A stretch of DNA of 53,126 nucleotides, from assembly GCA_009602725.1 (NCBI GenBank), contig WELB01000020.1:1003701-1056826 (forward strand), given 5' to 3'. The DNA comes from Spirogloea muscicola (taxonomy: Eukaryota; Streptophyta; Zygnematophyceae; Spirogloeales; Spirogloeaceae). The notes under the pieces are model-generated. The model was not told the DNA's origin, made no database searches, and saw only the letters and a list, made by a program, of their open reading frames with translations. The position numbers were made by a program, and so were the translations under genes. Below, piece after piece: positions 4,740 through 53,126 of this stretch. Each line of letters starts with the position of its first letter. Position 1 is the stretch's first letter.

Positions 4740-5324
4740 GCCATTGCCCTTTTTTATCGCATGCGCCTGTCAATTCCGCTGCAGAGTCGATGACAATTTC
4801 TAATCGCCGGAAACTGCTTGCCTTCTGATAAATTTTAGTGACCGAAGTCGTCATTCAGGCCATAAAACAATATCGTGGGTCGCCCTTAAACACGGCCTTT
4901 GAGCAACTGCTCGGCAGTGTGTGATCACATTACGCTTGCGCAGCTGTCAGCCATTGGGCTCACACCCAATCGCCCCTTCACCACATGAGCGGCTCGTGCA
5001 CTTGGGTGCAGCTCTGCCCATCTCTGATGTCCTCGTCGCAGCTTCCAGCTTCCCGCGCCATCGCAGTGGGCGCAGCTCTCGTCGGTCTTGCATGTCCCAG
5101 TAATGTAACGTTTGTACTAATATCCAGGAGTTGGCAAGCACACGGTGCCCGCTGTCTTGCTGCTGTCGAGGTTGGCACATTCTCCGGCGCTGCCCAGACA
5201 TGACGTGACTTGTTTGAAGGTGAGAGAGGTATCGACATTGCAAGGAGCACAATGGTGAATGACCAAGAAGGCTGCGTTGTAAGACTGTGGTACTTTTCAT
5301 AAGTGCGGCAGGTGGTGTGGCTAG
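4740..5324. other. Region without recognised gene
   Basis: The short open frames have no known motif. No tRNA or repeat was noticed. Confidence 0.4.
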
Positions 5325-21024: not shown

Positions 21025-21190
21025 CGGGCTGGCCTCTCACAGCCATCGCCCTCTACTGGAGGCATCTTCCGTCATAGGGTACATTGAGTAGTCAGTGGCC
21101 ACCACCACTAAGTGGCCACTTGAGTCGCTGTCTGCTTCAGCGCTTCTCTGCTTTCCAATTGCTGTGACGAGCTGGTCATAGGTGATAATC
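21025..21190 (+). mobile_element. Family A 3' UTR pieces
   Basis: A GGGCTGG-CCTCTCA-CAGCC hairpin at about 21026-21045 is followed by a second first-after-stop segment (AGTGGCCACTTGAGTCGCTG) and GCTTCAGCGCTTCTCTG. It marks the point where the family B copy is truncated. Confidence 0.5.
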
Positions 21191-26689: not shown

Positions 26690-27065
<376 letters not shown>

Positions 27066-27176: not shown

Positions 27177-28299
27177 CCCCCCGTACTTTGGCCTCTCTTC
27201 CCTCCCCCTCTCCCGTCGCGCTCCTGAATCTTCTTTGGTTGTTTTCCTGCCTCTCTCCTTCTCCTTGTTGCGTGTCTTTGTGCTTTTACTATGTCAATCT
27301 CTCCTCATAACCGAATGTTGCTTTCACACCCCAATCTATCTGTCTCTTCTCCTCTACCTCTACCACTCTCTCTATCAAGAGCAGCGTGATGTCACTCGTG
27401 TTTGTGCAGCCTGCATTCCTGGACAAGCCCACTACACCTGCCAGAATCTGGGGTTGAGTTATGATCCTGCATACGCATGCATGGGTGGAGGTTGCAAGTA
27501 ATCTCCATGACTCAGAGGACTTTTCCGCATGATCTGCTGCCAACATATGATGATTATGATGTTAAAGGGCTCCGGAGCTTAAACACTCAGCTGTGCAATG
27601 AGAATGGTCCCTGTCCAAAGTACATTACAGAAAATGATGTTGGAAATTAAAGCCCTATCAAGATTATGTGGAGGGACACCATGCATTGTCACTCACATCC
27701 TCTGTGTCACATCATATGTAGTTCTGAAGGAGTATGTGATGTGGTGGCTTTTGAGAATGGCATTGCTTGCTACAGTACCAGCTATTCCTCGGATTGCGCA
27801 AAACTTCATTGCGAGTGAGTTCCTAGTAGCCAGAAGTTAGAAGTAGCACCTTGCAACCTGGATTTCATTTGTCTGCTTGCTCTTGCACAGGCTCGTACAG
27901 GCACTGTGATGCTTGCTTGGACTTTCTTGCGCTCTGTTCTGCATGTTGGCCTAAAATCCTCTCACTAGCAGCTACACGAGCACAGTCCTACTGAGGCATC
28001 CTTGACGTTCTGCCACGCCTATGGCACAAGCACTTGATAACTGCTCTAATCCCTTCATTGTGGCCAACTTGGAGTTGGCTTCTGGATTGTGCCTGATACT
28101 TGTGCATGTTACTCCATGTAATTAAGCATTCAATGCCTGCAGGGATGGACAATGTACAGCAGAGTACATCTACAGTGCCTATAGTGGCCAGAAGTGCAGG
28201 CCACAGGGATGTCCCAATGACGATGATACCTGCTAATCTTTGTGTGATGGTGAAGGCCATTGTCAGCCCAATTACCGAGTAGACACTTGTGAGCCGTAC

Positions 28300-33151: not shown

Positions 33152-36100
33152 CTAAGGATAACCGTATAGGTTGCACACACTACCCTCGCATTGGCCACTG
33201 TAGTCTTGAAAGTAGCAGGGGCCATTGCCGGAAACGCAACTTCCTTGGTTGTTGCAGACGGAGCAGCACCCAAGATGACATGACCCATCGCAAAGCGTGT
33301 CGACCAGCTTGTAGCTGTCAATCTGGCATATGCCCTCACTGCAAAGGTGGCATTATATCAGTAAAGCTGGAGCACAGGTCGTGACTAGTGAGCATCTTTA
33401 CAGCTCAAGCTTTGTTCCTATCCATGAAATTCAACATGACAAGGAGCTATTGTGCTTCAAAGTCCTGCAGTAATGACCCTTGGCGCAAAGGCTGTCAGTA
33501 TGACGGCAAAGTACAATCAAATTGGCGCAATCCGAGGCCTTTGTCAGATACCTGCACTTGCCATTGACGCAGTCGGGATGGATTGGTCCCTTGATGTCAG
33601 TTATGTCGCAAGAAGTGCCGTTTGGCAGAAATTTTAGCATGCACTTGCCACTCCTGTGACATTGACCACCCAGGATGCATGCTCAGTTGGTGCTAAGCTC
33701 TCATCTCAGGTCCTCCGCGTGCCAAAATCACAGATGGATGCAACCTGAAGCAGGCTCATTTGTGACTTCCTGATTCTGGCCGAGGCATATCAAAGATCCA
33801 TGTAATTCACAGTTTACACAGTCTTGTGGCCTACATGCACGAAGCAGTAGCACAGCCCTTGTACTCAGTAAGGGGACCATCATTCAGTAAGGCACGCGCG
33901 CAATCAGTGCCATCTGGAAGTGGAGAGACCTGAGCACAGGTGCCATTCCTACATGAGGAAGAACCAGAAGCTTCATATCAGTAGCTGGACCACATGTTGA
34001 TACATATGTCAGTGGCGCATGTAGCACATGTGCAACACAGCTGAAGGTATTCCGCAGTCACACAGTTGCATGCAATGGTTTCAGGAGAGCATGTGGCACT
34101 CCATGATCCTCCCACGACATGGACGGTCATTCACCTGCACTTCAGCACGCTGCAGAATCATCCTCAGGGACATAGTCGCAAGGTTTTCTCGCATTTGCAG
34201 CGTAGTCGTACCGGCAGTGTCCAGCACCACTGCCAACAAAGTGTCACCCGTATCAGAGCCTGAAAATCATGCTTATGGGAAGTCCGGTGCTTTGACTTTG
34301 TCAAAGTAGCACATTCCAACAACCAACCAATACTTGAGTAAACCTTCTCATAAGATCAGAAGCAGATGGTGGCGGGCTCACTCGCACGCTCCGTTCGGCT
34401 CGCAATGGTTGTAATTATCAATATGCAAGGAGCAAGGAGAGCCCGCGGAATGCAAGCTCATGACCACACATGACCCGTTCCTGTTGAGGATGAAAATCAA
34501 GCCAGCAGCTAGCTTGTGAGTACGTGGCGCTAAGCAGATAGTCATGCTTGCATGCCCAACGACCTGAAGACAACAAACTACTGCTTCTCAGGGGACAACA
34601 TGGAGACCAACGTCAGGACCAAGTTCAGCCACTCGTTTGGCCCACTTCAATCTATCATGATCACAAGTCAGAGCTGCCCATCACTGCAAGGATCATGGGC
34701 AACACGGCTATCGGGATGAAAGTCAAAGAAGATGGGTAAACGATCTTGCTCATCTCAATGCACTGACCGGCAACCGAGATCGGCGCAATCATTGTCAAGT
34801 CCAGGCAAAGAATCACAGAAAGAAGGGTAAGGATCCACAGAAGTAGCCCGTGCACATCGGAAGGAAGGAACAAAGTTCACAGTGCTGAAGACACGCAAAG
34901 ACAAGAACACGATAAGGTCATACTTACTGAAGCACCCTACTAGTACATAAGAAAGGATTCGCTGGCAGGAAATTCGCGCCATATTCAGCATACAAGAGAT
35001 GCTGAACAGATTTTCCTGTCAATTGATACTTGCAGCTGATAAACGACCATGCAACAGCCCAAAAGCGTGTTCAAGTTCTGCTTGCAGTCAAGGACTTACT
35101 CGCAATATGCATAGGCACACGGGTATCGGCTACGAGCTGGAGTCGAGTCAAGCAGATCAGGCTGCCAGTTCCGGCAAGTAAATTTGTAGCTATCCGGCGA
35201 GCAGGCTGCACATGCCCAGAAAGAAGTCCTACTAAGAGTCTAGCTAGCACTTCGATCTGTCTTGGGAGATACCAACAGATGCAGAGCACCTCTGCATGAG
35301 CGGCCTGATCATCCTTCACATACTTCAGAGTGAAAGCACGCAAACTGTTGTCATCTTGATGCAGGGCGCTTCATGCACTTCATGAGGGTTCACAAGTAAT
35401 GGACGGTGAGACGAGGGGTGTGAAGGAAGTTAAGCAGCACCCACTGGGTGCAGGTAGGCCCGCACAGACTGAAGCTGGCCTCTGGTATTTCGCCGGACGG
35501 TCCAAGCAGTTGAAGTTGGCGTGGACAACAGCGCGCCCCTCTTTTGTGGCATTGGGTGCTGCCCCAATGAAGTAATTTCTGGAGATATCCACCCATGTCA
35601 GGTTCTGGGTTGAAGCAAAGAAGTCCAGCCTGAAAGCTCCTTGGAAATTGTTGTACAAAATGTCTCTGCCACCATCAATCAACAAGCGTGGCTTAGAACA
35701 AGAGCTCCCATTTTTGAGGAGAAAGAGAAGTGATTTCAATCGGTTGGGCATGACATAGGTTCGCTCTGTTGCTCCTTACAATTTTTGCAGCTTTGTAAGG
35801 TATGCAAAGGGTTTTATCCCCAACCCCAGATCTGGCAGCACCCCTTCAAATTGATTCCCTGCAATGTTGCTGCAGAAAGCAGGAAACTCGCAGGCATTCA
35901 AGTACAGTGAATCAGCAGCGCAGTCCGTCTATGATGCAAGCATGCACATCCTGTCTAGTCCTTCACATGCCCACTTTCAAGAGAACAACCCCTGCAACCA
36001 TCAAATCGTGATGCAAGTGGTGTTGTGCAGACTTCCTGACAATGGCAGCAGTGAGCAGCAATGGATCGCTTTGGCGATCAAGGATCTTACAGGACTTGCA

Positions 36101-38605
36101 GATTCCTGCATTTAAGCAGCTGGTCTGGGAAAAAGTATGCAGTGAGGTTGTTGTATGAAAAGTCCCTGATGTGCCAATGCATCATATACTTTGCCGATCA
36201 GCCATGTCAGCATCGAGTCAATTTTCAGAGCAAAGAAGCTCGTCAAACAGTTTGTCTGTGGGCACCACTATGACCACAGAAAGTAAGTTGCTTGCATCTG
36301 AAAAGCTCATGCAAGGCAAAGGGAAGCTACTCTCTGAGTCATACACGTGGGTGAGGACATCATTGAAGGTAATCATTCCGGTTGGAGTAGTGAATATGCT
36401 CGTCAATCCGTATGGTACCTGGGTTGGGCCCGTCAATCTGTTATGTGCCACTTGACTGCACATGCAACAGCACACCACTCAGGGGATCTAGCTGGCCCAT
36501 TGGATGCGCATATGTGCACCACCCCTATCATCCCAGTCATTCTGCAGGAGCCAGAAACCCCTGGTACCATGTGAAGGATAACGTGTCGCTAAATCATGCA
36601 TTGAAGAAAGCTCAAGCTACAGCCAGGGCCTATTGCAAGTGCTTGATTCTCACATTTTCTGCAGCGCAGACATGGTGGATAGGCGGGGCAAGTCGCCACT
36701 GAGGCTGTTGTTATCCAAAATTCTGTAGAGGTGCAAGAAAAAGAGGGAGTCGAGGTCATAGCAAAATACATGAAGGCCGACAAAGCTAATAAGCTGGAGT
36801 AGACGTTGCGCTATAGTTGGAGGGTGGTGTTTATGCAAGATCACAGCACTGAAAGTCTCAAAGTAAGTTGTTTTAGGGAAAGCCAACACGCACAAGATGA
36901 CAAGTCGGTAGAGTCGGGTGATGGTAGCCGGTACGCTGCCGGTGAGGTTGTTACAGCAGAGATGGCTGGTTTGTCGAGCACAAAAGGTCCAGCCAAGCAT
37001 GTGAAATCAGGACAAAGAACTAGGAATGTACTAATCAGGATACTGCAAGTCTTGCTCCTCAGGTGCCCACAGTGGAGCAGCATAGGCACCTACAGGCTCA
37101 CTTAAAATTTTGTGACGCCACACCTAGGAAGATGTCATGTAGCAGAAGCTTCTATCTCAGGGTATTATATCAACAGTATGTGCCTTCGGGTCAGGACAAC
37201 ACTTGCGCCTAGTATGCTATTGTGAGATACGCCTTACAAGAACTCACAGCAGGGTCAGCGCAGATAGCTGCCCAATGCTATCTGGAATACTCCCACTTAA
37301 GAAGTTATGGTCAAGGTTCCTGCAGGCAATCATGTGACAAAAGCACAGTGACTTTGCTTATCGACTATCTGAACACTCAAAGTAGTCCTCAGGACAGCAC
37401 ACAAGCACGCCAAAAAAAGGTGAGCAGAGCTTGATTTCCATACAAAAGGTCCAAGTGGGCGAGGTTGCCAATTGTAGAGGGAATCACTCCGGAGAGCCGA
37501 TTGCCATAGAGATGCCTTGCACAGCAGGTACAAGAGGTGTGCTTGTTAAGCCCCACTGAAGCGATCACACAACTAGCTAAAGAATTACAGGAAACACCAG
37601 CTTGTGGATGGCTGCTGCCACGAGAACCTCGTAAGTACTGCGAGCAGGTTGACGGGACAGCAGTGTCTCACAAGCGTGTCAGGCCCGTCAGGTTGCCAAT
37701 GGAAGCAGTGATGCTCCCGTTGAGGTTGGCGTTCACGACCACTCTGTGTACGCACGGGCTTGCTTCATTTGGCATCAACCCCACGCCAAGGCTGACAAAG
37801 GTCTGCGGAGCTCGAAGTGTGCACTTCTGTGGACCGGGGAGGGTTCAGGGAGCCCAACGGCCAATGCCAGCACAGTATTCAAGGAGCGAGCAGGCCGCTA
37901 TCAATGGAGGATCTGGCCCATTCTGAGCACCCTCAAGGGCCAGCATGTGGCAGGGCATGATTAGACTCACAGCGAGGAGACGCGGTTGGTGCCCGGGTCG
38001 CACTCGATGCCGTACCAGGCGCAGTGGCCGCCGGTGGAATTGCAGCCGGCGCAAGGATTGGGGCCCACCCAACTCGACAGAATGCTGGGATTGTGCACAC
38101 TAGCCTTGAAGCTTTGCAGGGCCGCAACTGCAGAGCAGATTACGGGCGGCGCAGCGTCAGGCGCGTGGCAAAGTGATGGCAAACTACCAAAAGAGATAGT
38201 TTGGAGTGTCTCTTCGCGACGGCAGGCTGGCGAGGAGGAGGAGAAGGCGCGCGGCGCGCCTGAAATGGAAGGTTGGCCAACCCATACCCAGTGCATTGTA
38301 CAGGCGAAAGCTAGTGCAAAAGTGGGACAGCTTGAAACAAAGCCCGATGCTGAGGTGGCCGCAAGGAGAAGGTGCGCTGTGCGCATGAAGTGAAAGGTGG
38401 CCAAACCAAGCCAACCAGCTGTTGAGGCAAAAGCTAACGAAGACTCACGGTCTGGGTGCAGGGCGAGCAGACGGCGGCCGATTGGGAGCGCAACTTCGGG
38501 CTGGCGCACAGTAAGATGCGGCTGCTGCAATTGGGAGATGGGGGAGTCGGCGGCGGCGCCGGCGGCGAGGAGGGCGGCGGCGGCGAGGAGCAGCAGCGCC
38601 GCCAT
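33152..38605 (-). CDS. LRR/Cys-rich secreted protein gene L1 (18 exons)
   Basis: Exons (minus): 38449-38605, 37971-38127, 37672-37743, 37444-37515, 37248-37319, 36894-36965, 36654-36722, 36345-36455, 36091-36165, 35780-35869, 35445-35665, 35100-35205, 34768-34884, 34382-34480, 34135-34229, 33835-33948, 33552-33653, 33152-33338. Exon 1 is a signal peptide (MAALLLLAAAALLAAG). Exon 2 is a plant LRR N-cap (LSSWVGPNPCAGC...CAWYGIECD). LRR exons of 72 nt in phase 2 follow (VVVNANLNGSITASIGNLTG). Next come six or seven Cys-rich exons, mostly ending in Cys plus two bases (CSPDSYKFTC, NGSCVV, GAGHC, NGTCAQ, GKCMLKFLPNGTSC). A stop (TAG, 33152) follows the last module. No transmembrane or kinase exon was seen. 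Exon 34135-34229 is 95 nt where the paralogue has 96, giving a frameshift. Restoring that base makes the model 663 codons exactly. It is a decayed gene or carries a sequence error. Confidence 0.82.
38225..38415 (-). repeat. Two class C boxes inside L1 intron 1
   Basis: Boxes at about 38229-38290 and 38355-38410 each read GAGAAGG(C/T)GCGC followed by GAA(A)(G)TGGAAGG or GAAGTGAAAGG and GGCCAA. They match the class C terminal box at 40170-40215. This indicates two retroelement 3' ends within a host intron. Confidence 0.5.
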
Positions 38606-38689
38606 GGCGGCTGGCGGGTGGGGAGGTGCGACTGGGAGTGAGCGGAGGTCGGGGGGCTGGCACCAAGCTCCCCATTATGTACTTGCCTT

Positions 38690-38712
38690 TGTACTCGGCC
38701 ATTTGGCCTTCG
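38690..38712 (+). mobile_element. Family B 3' UTR hairpin remnant
   Basis: CTTTGTACTCGGCCATTTGG and CCTTCG form the family B hairpin (GGCCA-TT-TGGCC). It is joined directly to an inverted family A end, 85 bases upstream of the L1 start codon. Confidence 0.5.
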
Positions 38713-38875
38713 TTTGTTCGAAGAAAGCGCGGCCAGATTGACTGGTGGCTGGGAAAGGCCAGCCCAAAAGAATGGACAAGGTCTGAGGGAGCTTGAGTGC
38801 GAACGACTAGGACTAAGACATCAGCCAGGGAACGCTCAGTAACCTCTAGACAGGAGATGCAGATCCAAGTACACG
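38713..38875 (-). mobile_element. Family A 3' end, near-copy of 205-370
   Basis: On the minus strand it reads GGATCTGCATCTCCTGTCTA, GAGGTTACTGAG, and then a 3' UTR almost identical to 245-370, including the hairpin GGCTGG/CCAGCC. Only about 9 codons of coding tail remain (DLHLLSRGY). It lies about 100-270 bases upstream of the L1 start codon. Confidence 0.7.
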
Positions 38876-39028
38876 AAATCTTCATTCGCTGTGGTCGCTT
38901 GCACTGGTGGTGATTAAGTGATTATCCTACGGAAAGCATTTGGGAAAGCGCTTTTGGGCCCCTTCAGGCCTTGCCAGTTCTGTCCGGGCTGGCTGTTTTA
39001 GGGGAAGCCGCTTCGAAGAGGGCTAAGC

Positions 39029-39056
39029 TTGGGTGTTTGGTCTAGTGGTATGATTC
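39029..39056 (+). tRNA. tRNA-Pro 5' half (truncated)
   Basis: GGGTGTTTGGTCTAGTGG followed by TATGATTCT matches the acceptor 5' strand, D-arm and start of the anticodon stem of plant tRNA-Pro. The A-box-like GGTCTAGTGG is intact. The sequence stops before the anticodon and continues into a family B 3' UTR (TTTGTACTTGGCCACATGGC). No 3' half was found nearby. It is a broken tRNA gene or a chimeric insertion, not functional. Confidence 0.65.
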
Positions 39057-39220
39057 TTTGTACTTGGCCACATGGCCTCCCCATCTCTTAATACACCCCT
39101 CTTCTCTATGGGCGGGCACTTTCTTGATACTCACGTTTTCCTTTGGGCGAGCTCTTCTTCTTTGGGGCGGTGGGCCTCGTCTGCTCTTGGACGTGGTACT
39201 GATCGACGCATACAAGAAGG
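39057..39220 (+). mobile_element. Family B and A fragments, mosaic
   Basis: A family B hairpin (GGCCA-CA-TGGCC, 39064-39075) is followed by CTCTTAATACA. A family A terminus (CTATGGGCGGGCACTTTCTT) comes next, then a family A RLE fragment (GPRLLLDVVLIDAYK, about 39174-39218). Each is cut short at its 5' end. Confidence 0.55.
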
Positions 39221-39470
39221 GGGCCAGAGGAAGCCAGAGGAAGCGCTAAGAAACCAAAGCAGACAAAGAAAGAAAGCAGCTACAAATCACTCAGTAACCC
39301 CTGCTAAGCAGCCGCAAATCAGAGAGGCTAGGGTCCTGGAAGTGGGTCCCCTGGACAGAGCCAGAGGCAGCAGCGAGGGCTCTCCCGGCACGAAGGTGCA
39401 GCGCACGGGCCATGGACCTCTGCAGCGAGACGGCCAAGCGCATGCGATACACTTGCGCCAGCGACCCGGC
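39221..39470 (-). mobile_element. Family A 3' end running into gap
   Basis: On the minus strand: AGSLAQVYRMRLAVSLQRSM, then ALHLRAGRALAAASG, ending PSLSDLRLLSRGY with TGA at 39291-39293. The frame is intact up to the N gap. The 3' UTR lies at 39221-39290 and is shortened by the adjoining RLE fragment. Confidence 0.7.
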
Positions 39471-40019
39471 NNNNNNNNNNNNNNNNNNNNNNNNNNNNNN
39501 NNNNNNNNNNNNNNNNNNNNNNNNNNNNNNNNNNNNNNNNNNNNNNNNNNNNNNNNNNNNNNNNNNNNNNNNNNNNNNNNNNNNNNNNNNNNNNNNNNNN
39601 NNNNNNNNNNNNNNNNNNNNNNNNNNNNNNNNNNNNNNNNNNNNNNNNNNNNNNNNNNNNNNNNNNNNNNNNNNNNNNNNNNNNNNNNNNNNNNNNNNNN
39701 NNNNNNNNNNNNNNNNNNNNNNNNNNNNNNNNNNNNNNNNNNNNNNNNNNNNNNNNNNNNNNNNNNNNNNNNNNNNNNNNNNNNNNNNNNNNNNNNNNNN
39801 NNNNNNNNNNNNNNNNNNNNNNNNNNNNNNNNNNNNNNNNNNNNNNNNNNNNNNNNNNNNNNNNNNNNNNNNNNNNNNNNNNNNNNNNNNNNNNNNNNNN
39901 NNNNNNNNNNNNNNNNNNNNNNNNNNNNNNNNNNNNNNNNNNNNNNNNNNNNNNNNNNNNNNNNNNNNNNNNNNNNNNNNNNNNNNNNNNNNNNNNNNNN
40001 NNNNNNNNNNNNNNNNNNN
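39471..40019. other. Assembly gap (549 N)
   Basis: A run of N with a retroelement tail on each side, probably a collapsed repeat. Open frames spanning it are meaningless. Confidence 0.99.
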
Positions 40020-40215
40020 CGTGGCGGCGCTCCAGCTCCCCAAGTTAGCTTGTCAGATTTGTTTGTGCTCACCCGTGGGTACTAATGTCATCTTAGGTAC
40101 CTTAGATTAGGTCTCCGTATTATGTAGCCTTGTTTAGTCTGCACTCGACTCTGCCTGAACAATGTATTGGCTTGAATTGGCCTCCCTTTCAATTCATGCG
40201 CCCCGCGCGCCTTCT
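40020..40215 (+). mobile_element. Class C retroelement tail and 3' box
   Basis: After the gap the frame encodes GAPAPQVSLSDLFVLTRGY with TAA at 40083-40085. About 90 bases later comes the class C box (GAATTGGCCTCCCTTTCAAT, then TCATGCGCCCCGCGCGCC). It contains the stem GAATTG/CAATTC. This ties the class C box to an S-D-L-x-x-L-T-R-G-Y tail. Confidence 0.6.
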
Positions 40216-40367
40216 CTCTCTTTGGGGGAGGGCGGGGAAGCCGGGTCTGCCGGCGGCGGCTGCCGGCCCGCTTGCTGCGGGGTGACCGTGGCACATTTCA
40301 GATCCGCCAGATCCGCCTCCCGCCACTTGGCCGGCCTTGGCTGGCCGGCGCCCAGTCCGGCCACCTG

Positions 40368-40432
40368 CAGGAAAAAAGGCGCGCAGTGCGCATGCAATGA
40401 AAGGGCGGCCAATTGAAGCCTACATCGTTGAT
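40368..40432 (-). repeat. Class C box, inverted copy
   Basis: AAGGCGCGCAGTGCGCATGC and AATGAAAGGGCGGCCAATTG, the reverse orientation of 40170-40215 with several differences. Confidence 0.5.
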
Positions 40433-40469
40433 AATGAATGAAAGTGTCTCTCCCAAAGGAGTGTGTATC

Positions 40470-41125
40470 GAGTGATGGAGAGCCTGAGTGGCCAAGTACG
40501 AAGGCAAGCACATGCACAGATGTACATCAGCTGCTGCCAAGCTAAACCGCTCAGTAACCACGAGTCAGCACAAAGAGGTCGTTAATCGATGCCCGGACAC
40601 CGAATGGCGATCGACAAGCTCCTGTGCCACCAGCCAAGGCTCGACCAACTTTTGGATGTCAAGCATGAGCCTGAGCTCGTTGCAGAGAGGCTGACACACG
40701 ACGTCGTAAAGATATCAAATAGGCTGCCGGCATGCCCATCTGGATGGAAGCATATCCTCATGTCGTGCATATCCTAGACTTGCAGTAGGTTATGGAAGCG
40801 AGGACCCATGCAGCCGAAAGTGTCAATTGCTGCCGGTAGGAGGTGAGCGCTGCGGGTGTAGTCAGAGTAGTGTCAGAGCTTTCTCTGCTCAGCACCTCCC
40901 ACTGCATGGCCAGCAATGTGCATCGATGCGGAACTCTTGTCCGCCTCCGTCAACACCACATCAATCAAGGCTCATGGACCTCTGCAAGGTTGTACACCCA
41001 CAATGTCCAGGGTGCAACGGTGATGGCGTCCCTGGAAATTGGTGGTGATGGAAATTATATGGCTCACTTCCACAACGGCGCGGTAGCCGGTGTCGCGCAC
41101 CACGTCCGCCAGGGCTGTCGTGCGC
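40470..41125 (-). mobile_element. Family B RLE retroelement, decayed
   Basis: On the minus strand: VVRDTGYRAVVEVSHIISIT, then RRCTLDIVGVQPC-like sequence with GGGPR damaged, continuing in other frames to an SDLxVLTRGY region with the ancestral stop near 40552. The 3' UTR carries GGCCAAGTAC...AAGGCAAGCACA. There are multiple frameshifts and the 5' end is truncated. Confidence 0.6.
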
Positions 41126-41960
41126 TGTCCAGTCGGTGTTCGATTCGCGTCGGTGCTGACTCGGACGCGGAGGTGGCTGCACGCGTAGAGAATCAAGATA
41201 GGTCATCCATCAGCTTGGTGTGCAGAGAAGATGCGAGCGCGGGACCTCCCCGCTGTAGTCAGAAGTGGTGCCCAGTTGGTCGCTGGAGTACCACCTGGCG
41301 ACGGTTCAATCCAGATGCCGCCCAAGCACGCTTGGGGGCGACGTTCGACTTCGATTGGCCCCAGTCCCGCCGGACGCGGGCGCCCAACACCCAATCGCCT
41401 AGCCGTGCCAGTCTGGCCACGGCGTGCAGGCATGATGCCGCCCATGGCAAACTACTGACACCGATGAGCAGTGCCATCTGGCCACCCAGACCACACAAAG
41501 CCCCTCATAGACCGAGAGAGCTCATGAATGCGCGTCGAAGGTATGATTTGCCTCGATGAGCCGTGAGAAATCGGCTAGGCAGTGGTGGGGGAAATGGTAG
41601 GTGGTGGTAGGTGCGAGTCTCGGGCTGCACTGGCCTTGAGACCTGGGGGACCAGATGGGCCAGATGGCCCATCCCAACAAACAATGTAGTTCCTTACTTT
41701 CTTTGACCAAGCATAAGGCAACTTCCGCTGAAGAGCCTAATCCGGGTAGCTCCGCCTCCGGTCGCGTCAGACCGGCTCACACTCGGTAAGCCGCGAATAC
41801 CGCGACCTTGTGTGTGCAGAGTGCAGCCTCGAACATTGTCTCGAGCTGCTCAGAGGCTGTCACATACTATTACTTCAGCATCCGTCGTGTACGGCATTCC
41901 TTGACTTCGTCTCTGATTGTGGTTCTAAGCGTGTGACTTGTCTTCCAACCATCTTCACTA
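41126..41960 (+). repeat. Dispersed repeat D, copy 2
   Basis: It shares with 50000-50790 the blocks GGTGGCTGCACGCGTAGA, CACTGGCC(T/G)TGAGAC-type and AGATGGGCCA, and the run from GACCGGCTCACACT through GACCTTGTGTGTG, CTCGAGCTGCT, TCGTGTACG and TTCTTGACTTCGT to GTGTGACTTG. No coding potential is evident. Confidence 0.55.
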
Positions 41961-42216
41961 AATAATGAAGTTTTCTTAATTCTAAGTTCTGGATTGCCAA
42001 CCACGTCATCTGTTGGTTACTTCTATTCTGTTATTTTCTGTCAATGCCAATGTTGCTACTTATTTTCCCGCAGACCTACTTTTCACCTCATTTCCTTGAG
42101 TGTCCACCACGTAGAGTCGGATTCGTTGCCGACTTCCATACTGATCTGACTTATCGACGCAGTCTATCGGGCAGCCGACATCATCTAGCACGGCGACGCT
42201 CTGCGCCCGGGCATGA
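41961..42216. other. Region without recognised gene
   Basis: AT-richer sequence following repeat D. It may be part of the same element. Nothing is recognised. Confidence 0.3.
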
Positions 42217-42415
42217 CACGCCCACCACCTCAGGGCCTGTGGGACAAAGAGAAAACTTCCGTGTATGAGAAAGAAATGGAGGCCAAATGGCCAAGTACAA
42301 AGGCAGGCACATCTAAAGATCTTCATGACCTACAGCAGAATGACCCGCTCAATGACCACGGATCAAAACATGAAGGTCACTACTCGATGCATGAGCAAAG
42401 AAAAATGCGTGTATA
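42217..42415 (-). mobile_element. Family B fragment with internal deletion
   Basis: A 24-base piece matching the region just after the zinc finger (CCCACCACCTCAGGGCCTGT, compare 19318-19340) is joined to a decayed family B 3' UTR. The UTR includes the hairpin GGCCAAATGGCC (42283-42294) and a damaged stop region (GACCCGCTCAATGACCACGG). Confidence 0.5.
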
Positions 42416-42893
42416 TTAAGAGATGGGGAGGCCATGTGTGGCCAAGTACAAAGGCAAGCACATTGGACAAATGTACGTCACCTGCTGCTAAGCTGACCCG
42501 CTCAGTAACCACGAGTCAGCACATAGAGGTCGCTAGCTGACGCTCGAATACCGGACGGCAATTGACTAGCTCTTGTGCCAGCAGCTAAGGCTCGACCAGC
42601 TTTCTGATGCAGAGCATACGCCTGAGCTCGTTGCAGACAGGTTGACACTCGACGTCGCAGAAATGACAGATAGGCTGCACGGCATACCCATCTGGGCTGG
42701 GAGCATATCCTCGCGTCGTGCACATCCCAGACTCGCTATGTTCTCGAGTAGGGTATGGAAGCGAGGACCCAAGCAGCCGAAAGTGTCGATTGCGGCCGGG
42801 AGGAGGTGGTCACTGCGGGGGTAGTCTGAGTAGTGTCGGAGCTTTTTCTGCTCAGCACCTCCCACTGCGTGGCAAGCAATGTGTGTGGAAAGA
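42416..42893 (-). mobile_element. Family B RLE retroelement 3' end
   Basis: The minus-strand frames (42865 onward, then a shift near 42690) encode GGAEQKKLRHYSDYPRSDHL, AAIDTFGCLGPRFHTLLEN, and the tail ASDLYVLTRGY with TGA at 42502-42504. The 3' UTR lies at 42416-42500 with the hairpin GGCCATGTGTGGCC. The RLE core is missing because the copy starts downstream of it. A frameshift (MPCSLS) interrupts it. Its 5' end meets an inverted family A UTR. Confidence 0.7.
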
Positions 42894-43140
42894 GCAAAGA
42901 GGGGCTAGCAAAGCCAGCCCAGAGAAGAATGGGACAATATCCAAAGGCCACGGGAAAGGTGCCGTAAAGGGGGAGACTACGCAACTGGACACGAAATGAT
43001 GCAGGATGGAAGCCCGCTGATTCACCATGTAAATGCGATCAGTAGGGAGAAAGTGCTCGCCCATTCAGCATAGGGGCTGGAAATGCCAGCCCGAAAAAGA
43101 GTCAACAGAGGACAAGAAGGGGGCCAGGGGAAGGCGCTAA
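42894..43140 (-). mobile_element. Two family A 3' UTR units, inverted
   Basis: Hairpins at about 42901-42919 (GGGCTAG-CAAAG-CCAGCCC, imperfect) and 43074-43092 (GGGCTGG-AAATG-CCAGCCC, perfect). Downstream blocks are GGGGGCCAGGGGAAGGCGCT, and the terminus GTGCTCGCCCATT lies at 43052-43064. Confidence 0.65.
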
Positions 43141-44091
43141 GGGGGGAGGAGGAGGGGGGGACTGCCGCGGCCGCTGACGCCTTCCTGACTCTCGCCGCGG
43201 GTGTCCTGACGCGCGTCCGCCCGACGCTGTGAGTACGTCAATCCGTCCCCGACCCGAGCGGGAGAACGACCAATCCGAGACAAACCCGACCCGAGAACGT
43301 CAAATCCACCCCCTCCCTTCCACCACCTTCGTCGTGCCTTTGTGCATGCAGCCCATCGTCCCTGACCGTCCGCAGCTCTTTCCGGATTAGTCAACCATTC
43401 GTCACGGCACCTGTTCATAAATGAATCAGTACTGGGTCAGATCTGCGCGAGTCATGTGAGGTACCTCGAGCGGCACAATTTGGCCACGATACAATCCACT
43501 CACTCTCCCTCTCTCTCTCAACGGGCCATCTAGAGCGATGAGCCCTCTGTCAGGAGTCCTTATGCTTGTGCTGCCTGGTCTGCAGGTAGCCATTGGACAA
43601 GCACCATGATCATGTTTGCCGGTCATTCAGACTTGTCTCTGCAACACGCAATTCCTGCACTACTTGGTCCGTGCATCCCACGATTCTCTCTTATCGTCGT
43701 TGTGCAGACGGCACAGTCGTGCCATCGACTCCTCACACGAGCTAAGCATGTGACTATCTTACATTCTGCAGGCCCTTGTTGAGAAGGTCATGTACTTCCG
43801 GCAACTTGCCGAGTACCTTTCACTTTTCCCTTGCAGTGGATGATGGACAACGATGGGAGGGCTCTTGTCACCGAAGTTTGTGCTCCCACTAAGCAATGGT
43901 GTGGTGTGGAGCAGCCTCTTTGACCATGAGGACTCTTTGATACTATAGCTCTGCATAGAGATGCCAGTCATAATTGGAGACGGTTTGAAGGGTGGGCGGC
44001 ACCGATTTGTCAATTGACTGGCCTGCGTTTCTCACAGGTCCTCTAGACCTTCATGATGCTAGCTGCATCTTCCTCTGAAACAATACCTCAC
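43141..44091. other. Downstream flank of LRR gene L2
   Basis: GC-rich to about 43400, then mixed sequence containing the presumed 3' UTR of the minus-strand LRR gene. No other gene was recognised. Confidence 0.3.
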
Positions 44092-47000
44092 TTATGGGTC
44101 CAGGATGCAGGTAGTGCCCGAGCACTGGCCATCGTAGCCATTGATATTGCACGGACCACCAGTGTCAAAGTGGCACATTCCGTTTTCGTTGCAGAAGGCG
44201 CAGCAACCATGAGGACACGGACCTCCGCAAGGCGTGTCAACTGGCTTGTAGCTGTCAGTCTGGCATTTTCCCTCACTGCAAAAATTGGCAACGTGTCAGG
44301 TAAGATGTGAGCGGCATAAAAGCTCAGCTTTGCTTTCTACCATGAAGGAAACTATCAGCGTGACATGACAGCTTATGAGTACAGGTCTTCTCAAATCATG
44401 AGCCCCTACGCGCAGGCTGTGGCAGTAAAGTGGCAAGATACATTTGAAGTACTGACTTCCAGGTCTTAAGGCAATACCTGCACTTGCCGTTGACGCAGTC
44501 GGGATACAATCCTGTGTTGATGCCAGTTATGTTGCAAGGAGTGCCATTCGACAGGAATTTCAGCATACACTTGCCATGCCTGTGATGTGGCCCACCCAAG
44601 GTGCAATAGTCATGCTCAACTGGTGGATCCTAAGCTTATGTCCTCACAGGTGCCAGGAAATGTTTGGCTGGACATGTATGCTGATTGATGAGCTATGCTT
44701 ACTTGTCAAGTCCGTCTACTGTGTGGAGCACAATGACTATGTTGGCTTACAGCTTACGCAGATTTGTGACCTACATGCACGATGCAGTAGCACAGCCCTT
44801 GTAGTCAGCAAAGGGGCCCGGGACGCTGTTTATAACGTCCAAGGCATGTGCGCAACTGGTGCCATCTGGAAGTGGAGAGATCTGAGCACAGGTGCCATTC
44901 CTACAAGACAAACAACCTCAGCTCTGACTCAGTAGCTCGTACACATGCTGGTGAAAAAGTCATGCTAATTACTGGCAGAATGCGCCACAACATCTGCAGA
45001 ACAGGTGTTGCCAAGTTCACAGTGCGCATGCATTGGTCACAGAGACTGTGCCGTTGCATGTCCTCGCTAAAAGCTTGGACATCAGATACACCTGCACTTT
45101 TGCACACTGCAGAAGTCGTTCCCAGGGATGTAGTCACAAGATATATTGTCCTTTGCACCGTAGTCGTAAAGGCAGTGTCCAGCACCACTGCCAACAATGT
45201 CTCACCAGTGTCACAGCCCAAACGGCATGCTTCTGGCAAGTTGGATTTCCTTATATGCTCGTGACACATGAGTTGAATGCACTGCACTGCACTGCATTGA
45301 CTCTTCGACGATATTCGTCGACAATGGAGGCGGCTTTACTTGCACACTCCATCCAGCCAGCACTGGTAGTTCTGGTATTCAGTTATCAATAAGCAGGAAG
45401 AGTTAGCGGAATAGTTGCTCGTGACTGCACATGATCCATTCCTGTACAAGAGGACCACCAAGCCAGCAGCATCTCTGTGAGCAATTGAGAAAGTGGTCAT
45501 GCCAGCACACCCGATGAAGTGAAGATCATCTGCTGTGCAAGTTGCCAACTTGACACCACGTGACAATCAGAGCCAGTGCACTACCTAGCTAACTATCTCC
45601 TGCACAGGGGTGGCCAGCTGCTCAACACCAGAAACACACAGCTATAAACAAGAAGGTCAAAGGACTAGCTCAATCGAGAGCACTGACCGGCAGCCGAAAG
45701 TGGCGCAAGAGGAATCAACTCCAGGGACAGAAGGGCAACGTGAGCCGTCCCCAAGACTAGCCCTTGTGCATTTCAAGGTCCCAGGGCTAGAGAGGCGCCC
45801 AGACAAGCATCAGTCAGGATCACTAGACATCCCTGGTAATGGATGTGAACAATAGTACTATCAGGAGCATGCGGTTCACCAGCAAGCAAGCAAGAGGTGT
45901 CTGCACCTGATGCATGACCGAGCAGTTGCGCTCAACAACCTCTGCAGTGGTGTTTGCAGTTTGGAGCTTACTTGCAGTATGCATAGGCACACGAGTTTTG
46001 GATAGAAGCAATTTCGTAACCAGGCAAGCCTGGCTGCCAATTCTGGCAAGTGAGGTTATAAGGGTCGTTATAGTCTGGAATGCATGCTGCACATGCCCAA
46101 CAAAGAGAATATAAACCAGCACTATGTCTGTGACAAAGAACTTCCTAAAGTTGCAGAGCACTCTGCATGGACTGGCAAAAACAGTCTGGACTATTATGCA
46201 TACTCAAGGAGCCTGCTCTGTCTACTTCCAAACTTCGAATAGCTCCATGCATCCACGAGACTCTACAAGGAAAGAGCCTAATAGCTGAATAAATGGGCGC
46301 ATGCAGGGACGAAGAGATCCTGAGAGATGGGTGTTGAGGTGGTTGAGGGCAGGAGGATGGGAGGGGAGGAGAACGGGGCAGGACGAGATTGGTGATGATA
46401 GTGGAGATGGAGCATTTGTAGCGCCCACCTGGTGCAGGCACGGCCGCACAGACTGAAGCTGGCCTCTGCCACTTTGCAGGGCGGTCGAAGCAGTTGGTGC
46501 CGGTGTGAACAGGTATCCCCTCGATTGTGACATTGGGTGCTGCCCCGACGAAGTAATTATCGGTGACATCCAACCACGTCAAGTTCCGGGTTGAAGTGAA
46601 GAAGCTCAGACTGAAAATGCCCTGGAATTTGTTGTGGGAAATGTCTCTGCCACATCATTAATTGTGGCCAATGAGAGTGGCTCATTGAAGGGGGGCCCTA
46701 CACTGAGGTGAAAGAGAAGCATTTCACATTGGTTGGGAATTGCATAATTCAGTGATGTCTCCCTTACAATTTCCTCAGCTTTGTGAAGGTGGTAAAGGGC
46801 TTCTGCCCTCCCGACCCTGAATCTGGCAGCGCCCCTCCAAAAGTGTTTCCTGCTATGTTGCTGCAGCAACCAGGAGCCTCGCAGGCAATATGTACAATTG
46901 CATCAGCAGCGCATTCTGAGCCTTGCTGCTGGCTGCACGTTACATACAAGTGATGTCAACCTAGCCTTCTATAAGTCAAGCACGAGGATTTCTGACGCCT

Positions 47001-49454
47001 GGCAGCTTGAAGCACCCTCAAGGACAGGAACCCCTGCCATTGTTCTGATGCATTTGATTTTATTGCTGGGAACAGCGCCAGTGAGCTGCGGTATTTCTTG
47101 TCATGCTAAGGCAATGAAGGACCTTACAGGACTTGCAAGTTGATGCAGCGTGTCAGCAGGTCTGGAAACAATCCAGTGAATCTGTTGTATGAGAAATCCC
47201 TGAAAGTAGCGGTGCAACATAGACTCTGCCAATTAGTGATGCTCTTGAAGACCATGTATGCATCTCGCCAATTTTTAAGCAAGTAGCCTCCCTCATATGG
47301 TTGTCTGTGGGCAGCTGATTATCAAGTGGCAGCTTGCTTGCATTTCAGAAGATAAGCAATGTAGGAGGAACATTGAAATTTGTCCAAGTCATACACGGTT
47401 GTGAGGATATTGTTGCGATAAACGGGTCCGCTTGGCACAAAGATGGGGCCTGTCAATTGATTGTGTGCCACTTGACTGCAATTGCGAAGTACACCACCCA
47501 TGAGTTTATCATTTATCAATCGGATATACATATGTGCATGATCACGTTGTGGATCTGCAATGCTACAAGCCTTTGGCATTCCGTATCGTGTCAGATTATA
47601 GTCAAAATGTCATGTGATGCCTGAGTCACATATTCACGTGCGGACAGAGCTCACGAAACAGCCAGCGTCTGCATGTGAAGTCTTGATTCTCACACTTTCT
47701 GAAGCGCTTGCATCTGTATGTTGGGAATGGTGCCATTAAGGCTGTTGTAGTCTAATATGCTGTGGAGGTGCAGGGGAGAGATCGTGTCAAGAACAACGCA
47801 GAAACACGAAGGCCAGAGCTCATGGATAAGAAGCTGGAACAAAGAGATTGCCGAGCTAAGTTGAAAATTGCAAGATCACAGCATCAACCATCTCAAGCAA
47901 GGTGTGAAAACTAGCAACGTACAGAATGACAAGTCTGGAGAGTTTTGTGATACTGGGTGGTATGCTGCCCGTGAGGTTGTTGCAGCAGAGATGGCTGACA
48001 CACACGGCACAAAAGACCAGTCAAGCATCTGCTAAAATATCAGGGCAGGGCACTGGGATGGTCAGAACGACATTGTAACATTGTCTCGTCTCACTTGCAT
48101 GCTTCCTAGACGCCCATAATCAAGTAGCGTTGCCATGTACCAGATTCAACTTTTTTAGTAATATCAATATGTAGGAGGAGGTCATGAAAGATAATAAGCT
48201 TAAACATTTGTCTTTTATATCCATCTATTGTATGTGCCACTAGGACAGGAAGTTCTAGCTCAGTTGCAGAGTGTATGTATGCAGTCAACATCAGACTGAG
48301 ATCTACACACGAGAACTCACAGCAGGGTGAGCACAGAAAGCTGCCCGATGCTCGCTGGGATACTCCCACGTAAGAAGTTATGGTCTAGGTTCCTGCAGGC
48401 AACTCTGTCAACTCTGTGACATGAGCACCAATGCCTTGCTCTTTTGGGCCACAACGCACAGAACAATGCGGGAGCCCAATGAAGAAGGTGAGTGTAGATT
48501 GATCTCGCACAGAAGGTCGAGTCGGACGAGGTTGCCAATAGTAGAGGGAATGCTTCCCGTAAGCCGATTGCCATAGAGATACCTTGCGAAGCACACGCGA
48601 GGAGTGGCATCAGATGCTCGTCAGTGTATCTCATTTACGACATTATTTACAAGTATAAAAGGAACCAGCATGTAAATGGCTGCTGGCAAGGGGACTACAC
48701 TGTAAGTACTGCGAGCAGGGTGATGGGGAGAGCAGTGACTCACAAGCACGTTAGGCCCGTCAGGTTGCCAATCGAGGGGGTGATGCTCCCATTGAGGTTT
48801 GAGTTCACAACCACTCTGTCAATGCACGAGCTCGGCTGCACTTGCATCAAGCAACGTGGACGGACGACAAAAGTCCGCGGACCAAGGGGGACTTAAAGAG
48901 CCTGGTGGAGACGGCGGAGTCAGAGGCGGCACCCTCCTGAAGTGGGCGGGCAAAAGCCCGCCACCAACCTACTCACAGCGAGCTGACACGATTGGTCGTC
49001 AGATTGCACTGGATGCCGTGCCAGGCGCAGTTGCCCCCCGTGGAGTTGCAGGCGGCGCAAGGGTTGGACCCCACCCAGCTCGACAGCACCGGCGGATTCA
49101 GCACCGCGGCCTTGAAGTCCAGCAGGGCCGCCACTGCAGGGCCCGCTCCCGGCAGTGGAGGCTCAGCAGCTTTCTGTGCAGGCTCTTCGAGCAAACAGGT
49201 CCTCAGCTAACGAGTAGGTCACTGCTCTCTAAGAACATCACAGAGCGGCTGTGAGAGCCAGCCGGGTGCATGCAGAGGGTGATTATGAGTATATTCGCGG
49301 GCAGGCAGGGGTGCCAGCGGACGCACGGTCGGGGTGCACTCCGAGCAGGCGGCGGCCGGGCGGGAGCTCTGCGAAGGCGGCGGCGGCGGCGCCGGAGTCG
49401 CCGGCGGCGCGGCGACGGCGGCGGCGGCGAGGAGGAGGGGGGCGGCGGCGCCAT
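44092..49454 (-). CDS. LRR/Cys-rich secreted protein gene L2 (18 exons)
   Basis: Paralogue of L1. Exons (minus): 49327-49454, 48977-49133, 48744-48815, 48511-48582, 48321-48392, 47923-47994, 47694-47759, 47395-47475, 47128-47199, 46768-46860, 46429-46646, 45972-46086, 45688-45786, 45340-45441, 45092-45187, 44775-44900, 44478-44579, 44092-44275. It has an LRR N-cap (LSSWVGSNPCAACNSTGGNC), 72-nt LRR exons (LCCNNLTGSIPPSITKLSRL), the cap-like exon ending QRPASVCAAVPAP, and Cys-rich modules CIPDYNDPYNLTC, CTRASLGDGSRC, NGSCAVTSN, GAGHCLYDYGAKDNISC, NGTCAQISPLPDGTSC, GKCMLKFLSNGTPC and EGKCQTDSYKPVDTPC. It ends ILDP-stop. Exon 1 is 128 nt where L1 has 157. The Ala/Leu-rich signal-like stretch and the RRLLGVHPD end are in different frames, so a base is missing or the start lies elsewhere. 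All other exons keep frame. Likely an extracellular protein; ligand unknown. Confidence 0.83.
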
Positions 49455-51039: not shown

Positions 51040-51520
51040 TTATTGATGTCGATCTGACAAGGCATGTGAGGTGGCTGCGCACGTGGACATCCGAGGCACG
51101 TTATCAATCAGTCCAATATGAAACAGGATTTGCGGAAACGGCACCTCCAGCTCATCCCTGGTCAGGTAAGTGCTCATTCGCAGCTGCGTCGTCGGTCCGA
51201 CATCGGCGGGCAACCTCATTCGGCCATGCCAATCGCTCAACAGAAGTGCCGCTGAGCCGTCGATGACATCGGCGGGCCAACCCCATCCTACCGTCTCAAA
51301 CACTCAAGTGCGTATCTGCCGCAAGGCTGTGAATCTGGCATCAAAGGGCAGACCCCATCCTACGCCCGACGAGGAGCCGAAAAGCCCTAAGGCCGCTCCA
51401 ATGGGATGTCCCATCCTGACGACCGAAGGCGGGTACCGGCCAGGCTAGCAGCGGGTGAAGGTGAAAATTATGAGGGAATAGCAATCCCAGGCTACACTGG
51501 CATTGGGGAGTAAGGGTGGA
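51040..51520 (+). repeat. Dispersed repeat D, copy 4
   Basis: Shared blocks are GATGTCGATCTGACAAGG, GGTGGCTGCGCACGTGGAC, GGCGGGTACCGGCCAGGCTA and CAATCCCAGGCTACACTGGC. Confidence 0.5.
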
Positions 51521-51547
51521 GGGAATTACGTGCATTGGAAACAAACG

Positions 51548-51590
51548 AAGGCCCAATGGCCAAGTACAAAGGCAAGCACATCTAAAGAGA
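51548..51590 (-). mobile_element. Family B 3' UTR fragment
   Basis: GGCCCAATGGCCAAGTACAA then AGGCAAGCACATCTAAAG matches the inverted family B 3' UTR (compare 42282-42316). Confidence 0.5.
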
Positions 51591-51604
51591 AAGCAGCAAT
51601 AGCG

Positions 51605-51757
51605 CTCTCAGGCTACACTGGCCTTGGGATGAAGGGTGGAGAGAGGAGCCAAATGGGCCAAAGAGCCTGCTCCAGAAATAATGCCATTCCTGCCGACCGG
51701 CACATGCGAGCGGAGGGCTGGGACCGAGCAGTTCTACTCGGTCCAGTCTCCTTCCCT
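51605..51757 (+). repeat. Dispersed repeat R, copy 2
   Basis: It closely matches 5325-5487 and ends abruptly at the start of the retroelement ORF. It is either the insertion target or a 5' UTR carried with one copy only. Confidence 0.6.
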
Positions 51758-53126
51758 AAGCCTTTGCGCGTGCAAGACGCTTTGGCAGAGCAGGAGAGCT
51801 CTCTCGAGCCGCTCAGGCCCTCTGCCCCGACCCCTTGGCAGCAAACAATGAGGCCACTGAAGCCACCTTGCGCCAGCTGCATCCTCCTCCTCAGCACCCT
51901 CTTGAGCCCTGGGTTGGCGAGCTCCCCACTCCTCTTGAACTTTCAGCAGATGCGCTCCGCACGGCCCTCACCAAAGGCCCCCGAATGGTGTCTGGAGGCC
52001 CTTCTGAATGGCTCTTCGAGCACCTTCGGGACATCTTCCAAAATGGAGACGAAAGAAGCTTCTCTCTGCTCCTCTCCACCTGCCGGCACATCACCAGAGC
52101 CACCATCCCCCCCCGCATCGCCGACGCTCTCAACTCCAGCCACCTGCTGGCCCTGGCCAAGCCGTCAGGTGGTGTCAGGCCCATCGCCATGACAGAAGTA
52201 ATAATGCGGCTGGTGACCAAGGCTTTGTGCGGCGAGCTAAAGTCCCAGCTGTCCACCCATTTTGCACCCCACCAATTGTGCTGGCATGTCCTGCGGGGCA
52301 GAGGCCCTCGTCCACGGGATCCGCGCAGCGCTGGATGTCAACCCATCACACATGGTCCTTGGATTGGACATAGCCAATGCATTCAACACTGTGGAGCGCA
52401 ACGCCATCATGGAGGAGCTGCGTGATCACTTCCCCTCCTTAATCCCCTATTTCCTCATGGCCTATGGCCGGCCAGGGCGGCTGCTGTGGCGTTCGGAGGA
52501 GTCTTGGACGACCTTATGGTCCACAACTGGCACACGCCAGGGAGATCCCCTCAGCCCCATACTTTTCGCCTTGGCACATTCCCGAGCACTACGGCGCACC
52601 CAAAGCCTGCACCCGAACCTCCTCTTCCCCTCCTATGCAGACGACACACATATCGTCGGCCCACCGTCAGAAGTCATGGCGGCTTATCCCTTGCTCGTAC
52701 ACGAACTGAGCACAATGGGCCTGCGGGTCTGCCCCACCAAGAACGTGGCATGGTCACCACGCCCCCTCCCCACCAACCTCCAGCTCCCACCAGGCTGCCA
52801 GACCCCTGCCAATGGGCTGGCTGTTCTCAAAGTTCCCCTTGGCACACCATCCCACATTGCGGAGGACTTGCGTGAACGCCTGCAGCAACACCTTGCCCCC
52901 CTTCCCTCCCTTCCCCTCCTCGGAGATCCGCAGCTGGCGCTGGCCATCCTTACTCGCTGCATCGGTCAACGAGCTGGCTACCTGCAGCGGACAGTCGCCC
53001 CAACGGACATGGTGGGCGAGCTGTACAAGGAGTTCGACACCTCCCTCCGGCAAACCCTGGCTTCCCTGATTCAACACCCATCCTTCCCCTCACCTTCATC
53101 CTCCCTGCAGGCATCCCTTCCCACAC
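51758..53126 (+). mobile_element. Family B retroelement, RT domain, runs off window
   Basis: The frame begins ARARRFGRAGELSRAAQAL, then LRQLHPPPQHPLEPWVGELP and WLFEHLRDIFQNGDERSFSL. RT motifs are LALAKPSGGVRPIAM, VLGLDIANAFNTVER (first catalytic Asp), TGTRQGDPLSPILFAL and YADD at 52634-52645. After the RT it stays open to the window edge through VGELYKEFDTSLRQ. A 2-base deletion relative to the minus-strand copy, near 52275 (HFAPHQLCW), shifts the frame between finger and palm. Otherwise this is the best-preserved RT here, with intact catalytic motifs. The zinc finger and RLE should lie beyond 53126. The upstream end meets repeat R. Confidence 0.87.

Follow-up and report, generated by a model that had tools for sequence, protein, structure and literature searches.

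The window analysed here is a stretch of 53,126 nucleotides (nt) from contig WELB01000020.1 (C20 in our numbering) of the zygnematophyte alga Spirogloea muscicola, and it contains two related leucine-rich repeat (LRR) genes, L1 (38605..33152) and L2 (49454..44092), each with 18 exons on the minus strand. Their products are probably secreted, wall-associated proteins of an LRX-like kind, in which the LRR face is conserved and exon duplication has lengthened a disulfide-rich stalk. Both genes are members, possibly damaged, of a large, partly tandem-arrayed family of this streptophyte alga. The predicted protein consists, in order, of a signal peptide, an LRRNT_2 cap, about ten plant-type LRRs, an LRX-type C-cap (NC..QR..C), the stalk and a Cys-rich terminal domain. 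The sequence itself shows this architecture and its intron phase, a large family, a ratio of nonsynonymous to synonymous substitution (dN/dS) below 1 in the tail, duplication of an exon pair and a lack of tail homologs in the libraries searched.

Gene models of L1 and L2

Introns of both genes are of the GT..AG type throughout, with lengths of 114–342 nt. Exon 1 of L1 (38449..38605) encodes the signal peptide and a linker (GRRLLALHPD) and ends in phase 1 at the E1/E2 junction. Exon 2 (37971..38127) encodes the LRR N-cap, whose equivalents in L2 and in the paralog L041 match Pfam LRRNT_2. Exons 3–10 (35780..37743) are LRR exons, all phase 2-2, with four of 72 nt (37743-37672, 37515-37444, 37319-37248 and 36965-36894) followed by four further ones (36722-36654, 36455-36345, 36165-36091 and 35869-35780). 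Exon 11 (35445..35665) contains the last LRRs and the C-cap (NCLDRPAKYQRPASVC) and ends in phase 1. The tail starts with exon 12 (35100..35205; 4 Cys, phase 1-2) and continues with Cys-rich modules in exons 13 (34768..34884), 14 (34382..34480), 16 (33835..33948) and 17 (33552..33653), each with 4 Cys and phase 2-2, and in exon 15 (34135..34229), which is frameshifted as assembled. The terminal Cys-rich exon 18 (33152..33338) carries a CC..C motif, 10 Cys and the stop codon.

The exons of L2 follow the same plan. Exon 1 (49327..49454) is the start region and exon 2 (48977..49133) the LRR N-cap (LRRNT_2). The LRR exons 3–10 (46768..48815), all phase 2-2, comprise exons 3–6 (48815-48744, 48582-48511, 48392-48321 and 47994-47923) and exons 7–10 (47759-47694, 47475-47395, 47199-47128 and 46860-46768). 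Exon 11 (46429..46646) carries the last LRRs and the C-cap (NCFDRPAKWQRPASVC) and ends in phase 1; exon 12 (45972..46086) is the first Cys-rich tail exon (4 Cys, phase 1-2). Phase 2-2 Cys-rich modules occupy exons 13 (45688..45786), 14 (45340..45441), 15 (45092..45187), 16 (44775..44900) and 17 (44478..44579), and the terminal Cys-rich exon 18 (44092..44275) has 10 Cys and the stop codon.

Exons 3–6 are 72 nt each in both genes. The donor of exon 8 was set at GT|GTATGA from an alignment of L1, L2 and nine paralogs, which rules out a donor two bases earlier with a phase-0 end; exon 8 measures 111 nt in L1 (36455-36345) and 81 nt in L2 (47475-47395), with phase 2 on both sides. From E2/E3 to E17/E18, 15 of the 16 junctions are in phase 2 (in L1 with the exon 15 frameshift set aside), and E11/E12 is in phase 1 (35445/35205 in L1, 46429/46086 in L2). 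Exons 12–17 are 95–126 nt long with 4 Cys each, only 3 being in frame in the shifted L1 exon 15, and their 3' ends show a Cys codon plus two bases in 6/6 cases in L2 and, in frame, in 5/6 in L1. The initial annotation of this stretch had proposed the same 18 exons in both genes, phase 2 from the 3' end of the N-cap onward with one phase-1 junction, and tail exons closing with a Cys codon plus two bases, all of which the exon models bear out. The size range that it gave for the tail exons also holds, and its 4–6 Cys per exon become 4.

The frameshift in L1 arises in exon 15, with 95 nt compared to 96 in L2. Exon 1 of L2 is 128 nt long, and in the assembly its ATG does not share the frame of exon 2; the signal-peptide exon of L041 is open at the position where that of L2 fails. 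These defects may be assembly errors or may mark pseudogenes, and both fit.

Cys-rich tail modules

The genome (153 Mb, 471 contigs) was searched for relatives, and 20 paralog loci plus two small ones were read; all genome match counts given here are lower bounds. The tail modules follow the pattern xGxC, about 8–11 residues, [GT]xC, a variable stretch, C, 3–5 residues and C, followed by two bases and the donor. A profile of the module yields 93 matches in 22 genes (the 20 paralog loci, L1 and L2), with four or more modules in 17 of the 22; L036 has two, L033 one, and L035, L048 and L049 none, the contig of L035 ending early. Four of the 93 matches do not end in Cys and were left out before the donors were counted. 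A GT lies exactly two bases past the last Cys codon in 88 of the remaining 89 modules, a partly circular count given that the training modules were chosen by this very feature; modules outside the training set, many of them close paralogs of training modules, give 39 of 40. Exon 15 of L1, with its frameshift, is the sole exception in both counts. Of the 89 modules, 87 have a phase-2 acceptor within reach. The four invariant Cys of the module alignment and profile stem partly from selection by Cys content and are not counted as conservation. Across the tails of L2, L034, L032 and L046, 29 of 36 Cys columns are invariant, compared to 74 of 212 other gap-free columns.

The whole tails of L1 and L2 have no Pfam match at E≤10, and the tail has no significant match among NCBIfam models or PDB sequences. 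Queried singly, modules match five scattered Pfam families, one module each (best E 0.065); an Adt-1-like model is matched by a single module of the 34 (E 0.14). The tail had not been recognised in the initial annotation either; the faint disintegrin or EGF likeness noted there finds no significant model match. An ADAM/ADAMTS Cys-rich or disintegrin tail was rejected for want of a significant Pfam match of the L1/L2 tail, and an EGF-like tail for want of an EGF match and with four Cys per module versus six per EGF unit. The likeness of NGTxC....C..GxC to ADAM-type motifs involves a few residues. Whole L2 matches the NCBIfam models XopAE, XopAC, XopL and a NEAT-LRR model with scores far under the cut-offs and within its LRRs, which says no more than ‘LRR’. 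In prokaryote and viral contigs, searched with two short peptide patterns each, 18 and 19 places fit the patterns, and tblastn showed no relative of the tail. Searches of the open-access literature, outside which most subscription papers lie, yielded no account of LRR proteins whose Cys-rich tail is built of exon modules. The tail module may be a new small disulfide domain.

LRR domain and C-cap

L2 matches Pfam LRRNT_2, LRR_1 and LRR_8, and the LRR half of L1 and L2 is an ordinary plant design. Exons of 72 nt in phase 2 with one LRR each, split at the first Leu of xxLxLxx, are already described for rice LRR kinases (PMC3050792). The reports on brown-algal ROCO genes (PMC11378527; 72 bp) and on Tetrahymena (PMC6564038; 90 bp) also describe one repeat per exon, phase 2 and exon duplication. 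L1 and L2 differ from the rice kinases in that no kinase or transmembrane part was found and the phase-2 series runs on into Cys-rich exons. In the ROCO and Tetrahymena genes the exons described are LRR exons, whereas the duplicated unit here is a Cys-rich exon pair and the LRR face is conserved, not diversified.

The C-cap provides the link to LRX proteins. A profile of 14 caps (51 positions) gave 68 matches, and among the best 60 of these the alignment runs through the cap in LRX2 (6qxp) alone (profile 7–46 to chain 296–337, E 4.1e-8); in 55 of the other 59 it reaches no further than position 23, and in four it stops at 30–34. With L2 exon 11 as the query, 6qxp is reached over residues 2–68 of 72 (E 1.4e-5).

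The concave face of the LRR domain is highly conserved. In exons 3–6, compared over 20–22 copies, the x residues of the β-strand (xLxx) have a mean entropy of 0.43 bits, compared to 1.36 bits at other non-framework positions (Mann-Whitney p 2.7e-4, approximate since the sequences are related). Over 14 overlapping gene pairs, 4 of 162 codons differ in amino acid at these residues versus 129 of 594 at other non-framework sites. This conservation suggests that the proteins share a single partner and do not form a repertoire of specificities.

An LRRNT_2-LRR head is typical of LRR kinases, and plant LRR kinases are the best PDB matches of the LRR half; on this account, L1 and L2 might belong to a receptor kinase or receptor-like protein as its extracellular part, the transmembrane or kinase exons having escaped detection. 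A PF07714 match at C244:16019-16282, on the same strand and 7.4 kb beyond the terminal exon of L050, would also fit. Against it stand the stop codon in exon 18 of L1 and L2, the stops that likewise end the last exons of L044, L050 and L039, and the lack of a hydrophobic stretch, judged by hydropathy only, in the L2 tail (maximum 19-residue mean 0.57) or at the ends of L044 or L050. No other PF07714 match lies near the loci read (125 of 772 candidates scored; PF00069 not run). We consider this origin quite improbable. A secreted protein is more likely than an LRR receptor, with no transmembrane segment found and no kinase close by among the candidates scored.

Some further features of the LRR proteins were observed. 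LRR exon 6 (window 36965-36894 in L1) encodes two adjacent concave-face Cys in 20 of 21 copies, the exception being L040. A G.RLL..H.D linker follows the signal peptide in exon 1 of 11 of the 22 genes, and its RRLL resembles a cleavage site of the subtilase S1P. An intronless open frame (L054, C16:953500-955700) encodes LRRs closed by an NC..QR..C cap, after which a further N-cap starts the next set of LRRs, and so on; it is a series of several whole LRR domains in tandem.

A divergent relative with a Ser-Pro linker

A divergent relative on contig C81 is read as LRRs, NCF..QR..C, a linker VPVPPPPSPPPPSPPPPP (SPPPPSPPPPP), Cys-rich exons and a CC..C terminal exon. At least 11 places in the genome match its cap exon at E 1.4e-25 or better, itself included, and its terminal exon is related to that of L2 (tblastn E 2.5e-5). 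If this reading is right, the tail would be tied to LRR genes in a second subfamily, which would have an extensin-like linker in addition.

Gene family and selection

The family is large. Counting L1 and L2 themselves, the L1 N-cap exon has at least 57 genome matches at E≤0.001, and for 26 the E value is no higher than 1.5e-17; the L2 C-cap exon has at least 42 at E≤0.01, the L2 tail at least 77 exon matches, and the terminal exon of the long type at least 19 rows, two of which overlap. Copies are clustered at 0.98–1.15 Mb of C20, and further copies lie on C99 and C453. L2 and L041 are 0.936 identical in LRR exons, 0.954 in tail exons, and 0.911 and 0.923 in introns, with gaps mostly intronic; exons 2, 12 and 18 of L041 differ in length. 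This exon versus intron identity was set aside as a proof of the exons, given the weak separation and the exon length differences in L041.

Counterparts of L1 and L2 are present on C99 in the same order and on the same strand, with a silent divergence of 0.07–0.14, and may be homeologous, a product of genome triplication, and not allelic; the Spirogloea genome is triplicated. GRAS (PF03514) matches the genome 92 times, many of the loci falling by eye into groups of three alike, and has no match in 14 control genomes. GRAS proteins are present in zygnematophytes and land plants, and are not known from other algae. The GRAS matches and the 3' end of the 18S rRNA, which looks streptophyte, support a streptophyte alga, and a chlorophyte origin was rejected on these two grounds. 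An 18S rRNA fragment on C33 (L051) is, by eye, interrupted by a repeat that is also found in the window, and this rDNA copy looks broken.

Estimates of dN/dS were obtained from 14 overlapping pairs, some of them distant (dS up to ~0.7), without a significance test. They range over 0.17–0.45 for the LRR region. For the tail they are 0.27–0.66 in 12 of 13 pairs and 0.90 for L1/L031, L031 having stop codons in its tail; the tail value exceeds the LRR value in 12 of the 13.

These values bear on the reading in which L1, L2 and L3, a relic elsewhere in the window, are pseudogenes left as remnants of a cluster that is dying or dead. The frame defects of L1 and L2, stops in L3, L031 and L036, the exon length differences of L041 and the L1/L031 tail value of 0.90 would be expected from it. 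The tail values of 0.27–0.66 in the other pairs would not, nor would the exons located in L032, L034, L047, L044 and L050, which are open (not every exon was located in each). Single-base length errors are also common in some assemblies. The probability of such a dead cluster appears low to us, and as an account of the whole family it is unlikely.

Another explanation is that the genes encode soluble immune-type LRR receptors or decoys with a diversifying recognition repertoire. For brown-algal ROCO genes, tandem duplication and exon gain are proposed to make new specificities (PMC11378527). Here, the clustered arrays with dozens of copies, the damaged copies, the weaker constraint on the tail than on the LRRs in 12 of 13 pairs and the module number that differs between copies are all compatible with that idea. 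The LRR concave face, however, is the most conserved non-framework part and not the most variable, and no whole-region dN/dS is above 1 in 14 LRR and 13 tail comparisons. An immune repertoire seems doubtful, and a secreted, LRX-like wall protein is preferred.

Exon duplication

The relationships between modules were assessed with 400 shuffles per pair in which the Cys positions were fixed, and are given as the number of shuffles that reach the observed score. In L044 the pairs B/D, B/E and D/E are reached by 0, 0 and 3 of 400, and the remaining 7 of 10 pairs by 15 or more. The corresponding values in L2 are 0 for E13/E16, 1 for E14/E16, 2 for E15/E12, 7 for E13/E12, 7 for E16/E17 and 9 for E17/E18, with 25 or more for the other 15 of 21 pairs, which do not clearly exceed the shuffles. 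Some modules of one gene are therefore alike in more than their Cys. Scored against L044 and L050, which have a single A and a single B, modules 1–4 of L039 come out in the order A, B, A, B (z of 3.8–8.3 for A rows and 5.8–9.0 for B rows; module 3 also scores 4.2–4.4 against B). L043 shows the same A-B-A-B order more weakly, with z of 1.3–2.7 in the first A row and 3.8–6.7 in the others. A two-exon unit present once as A-B in L044 and L050 is duplicated in one subfamily, and the A-B-A-B series shows a protein region lengthened via duplication of symmetric exons. Since exons 13–17 are symmetric 2-2 exons, modules can be gained or lost without a break in the frame.

Exon duplication and shuffling had been suggested for these tails in the initial annotation. 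Duplication is supported by the shuffle scores and the A-B-A-B order. Movement of modules into other proteins was not seen: all 77 of the L2-tail exon matches lie within 4.5 kb downstream of a same-strand LRR C-cap exon. Among the terminal-exon rows of the long type, 10 of 19 have a C-cap within ~6 kb upstream and 9 do not (C20:1147674, C137:1416, C75:353681, C357:38169, C238:114696, C289:111341, C69:659951, C99:65671 and C20:1008742), one of these being the relic at 4950..5191 of the window; the negative result does not extend to these nine.

Proposed function

We infer from the signal peptide in L1 exon 1 that the protein is secreted. The LRR head, with its near-invariant concave face, would bind one conserved partner, either a peptide or a wall polymer. 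The modules of about 30–40 residues with 4 Cys may each fold as an independent two-disulfide knot, and the Cys spacing suggests that together they form a stalk. Within the wall or mucilage, this stalk would hold the LRR head at a fixed distance and so take the role that the extensin domain has in land-plant LRX proteins. Its length has been changed in one subfamily, to some putative benefit, by duplicating symmetric exon units.

Polygalacturonase-inhibiting protein is not known to have a Cys-rich tail. It resembles L1 and L2 in being a kinase-free plant LRR protein, and matches the LRR half (1ogq, residues 3–227 of 325). LRX2 (6qxp) has in common with L1 and L2 a plant-type LRR domain, the NC..QR..C cap after the LRRs and a kinase-free C-terminal part; the divergent C81 relative is further like LRX proteins in the SPPPP linker after the cap. 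In LRX proteins a short Cys-rich hinge leads into a Ser-Hyp extensin domain (PMC7357788), whereas six tail exons and the terminal exon of L1 and L2 are Cys-rich, in a phase-2 register, and their exons 11–18 contain no extensin domain with Ser-Pro3-5 repeats.

Several observations weigh against an LRX-like wall protein. LRX2 is well down the list of PDB matches of the LRR half, in which plant LRR kinases are best; LRR kinases also outscore it on the LRR part of L2 exon 11, PSKR1 (4z5w) too aligns over residues 2–70 of this exon, and a composite cap query gave no LRX match. The link to LRX proteins depends on a single short cap motif. No Ser-Pro-Pro run is present in exons 11–18 of L1 or L2, and the module profile lends the C81 relative weak support (best domain E 0.0015 and 0.062), its modules having been read mainly by eye. 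Conservation of the concave face could reflect gene conversion in the tandem arrays, and the tail may be an inhibitor or a toxin-like domain instead of a stalk. Finally, the reading frame is broken in both L1 and L2 as they stand in the assembly, and neither is therefore shown to make a whole protein.

In land plants, LRX proteins, which bind RALF peptides and dimerise, couple growth signalling to the cell wall, and a large algal family that combines an LRX-type LRR cap with an exon-modular Cys-rich tail bears on the origin of this wall-sensing design. A survey of four algal genomes reports no LRX (PMC4769139), and a study of the Penium secretome names one LRX1-like protein (PMC6027541). More tentatively, the family might represent an algal LRX-like wall-sensor branch no younger than the divergence of zygnematophytes from land plants. 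An undescribed two-disulfide module, each copy on a symmetric phase-2 exon, would there have replaced the extensin anchor and given a stalk of adjustable length, made longer or shorter through duplication of exon units.

Other features in the window

L3 (24972..28290, plus strand, end approximate) is a 5'-truncated, stop-bearing relic of a related subfamily. What is left comprises parts of exons 6, 9 and 11 together with a first tail exon (27391-27495), a module (27722-27814) and a terminal exon (28147-28290). Exons 2–5 have no match in L3, and there is an in-frame TAA in exon 9 and a second one in the last exon. It does not amount to a third intact gene, as the initial annotation had it beside L1 and L2. 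A long TC microsatellite at about 26790-27065, followed by N to 27176 (an assembly gap), lies inside L3.

An isolated, frame-broken terminal Cys-rich exon of the long-tailed subfamily is located at 4950..5191 on the minus strand; the queries used found no other exons of this gene nearby. Rfam and tRNA scans of the window gave no match. By eye, the long open frames at 16807-17952 (plus strand), 18722-21052 (minus strand) and 51482-52425 (plus strand) resemble pieces of reverse-transcriptase/non-LTR elements.

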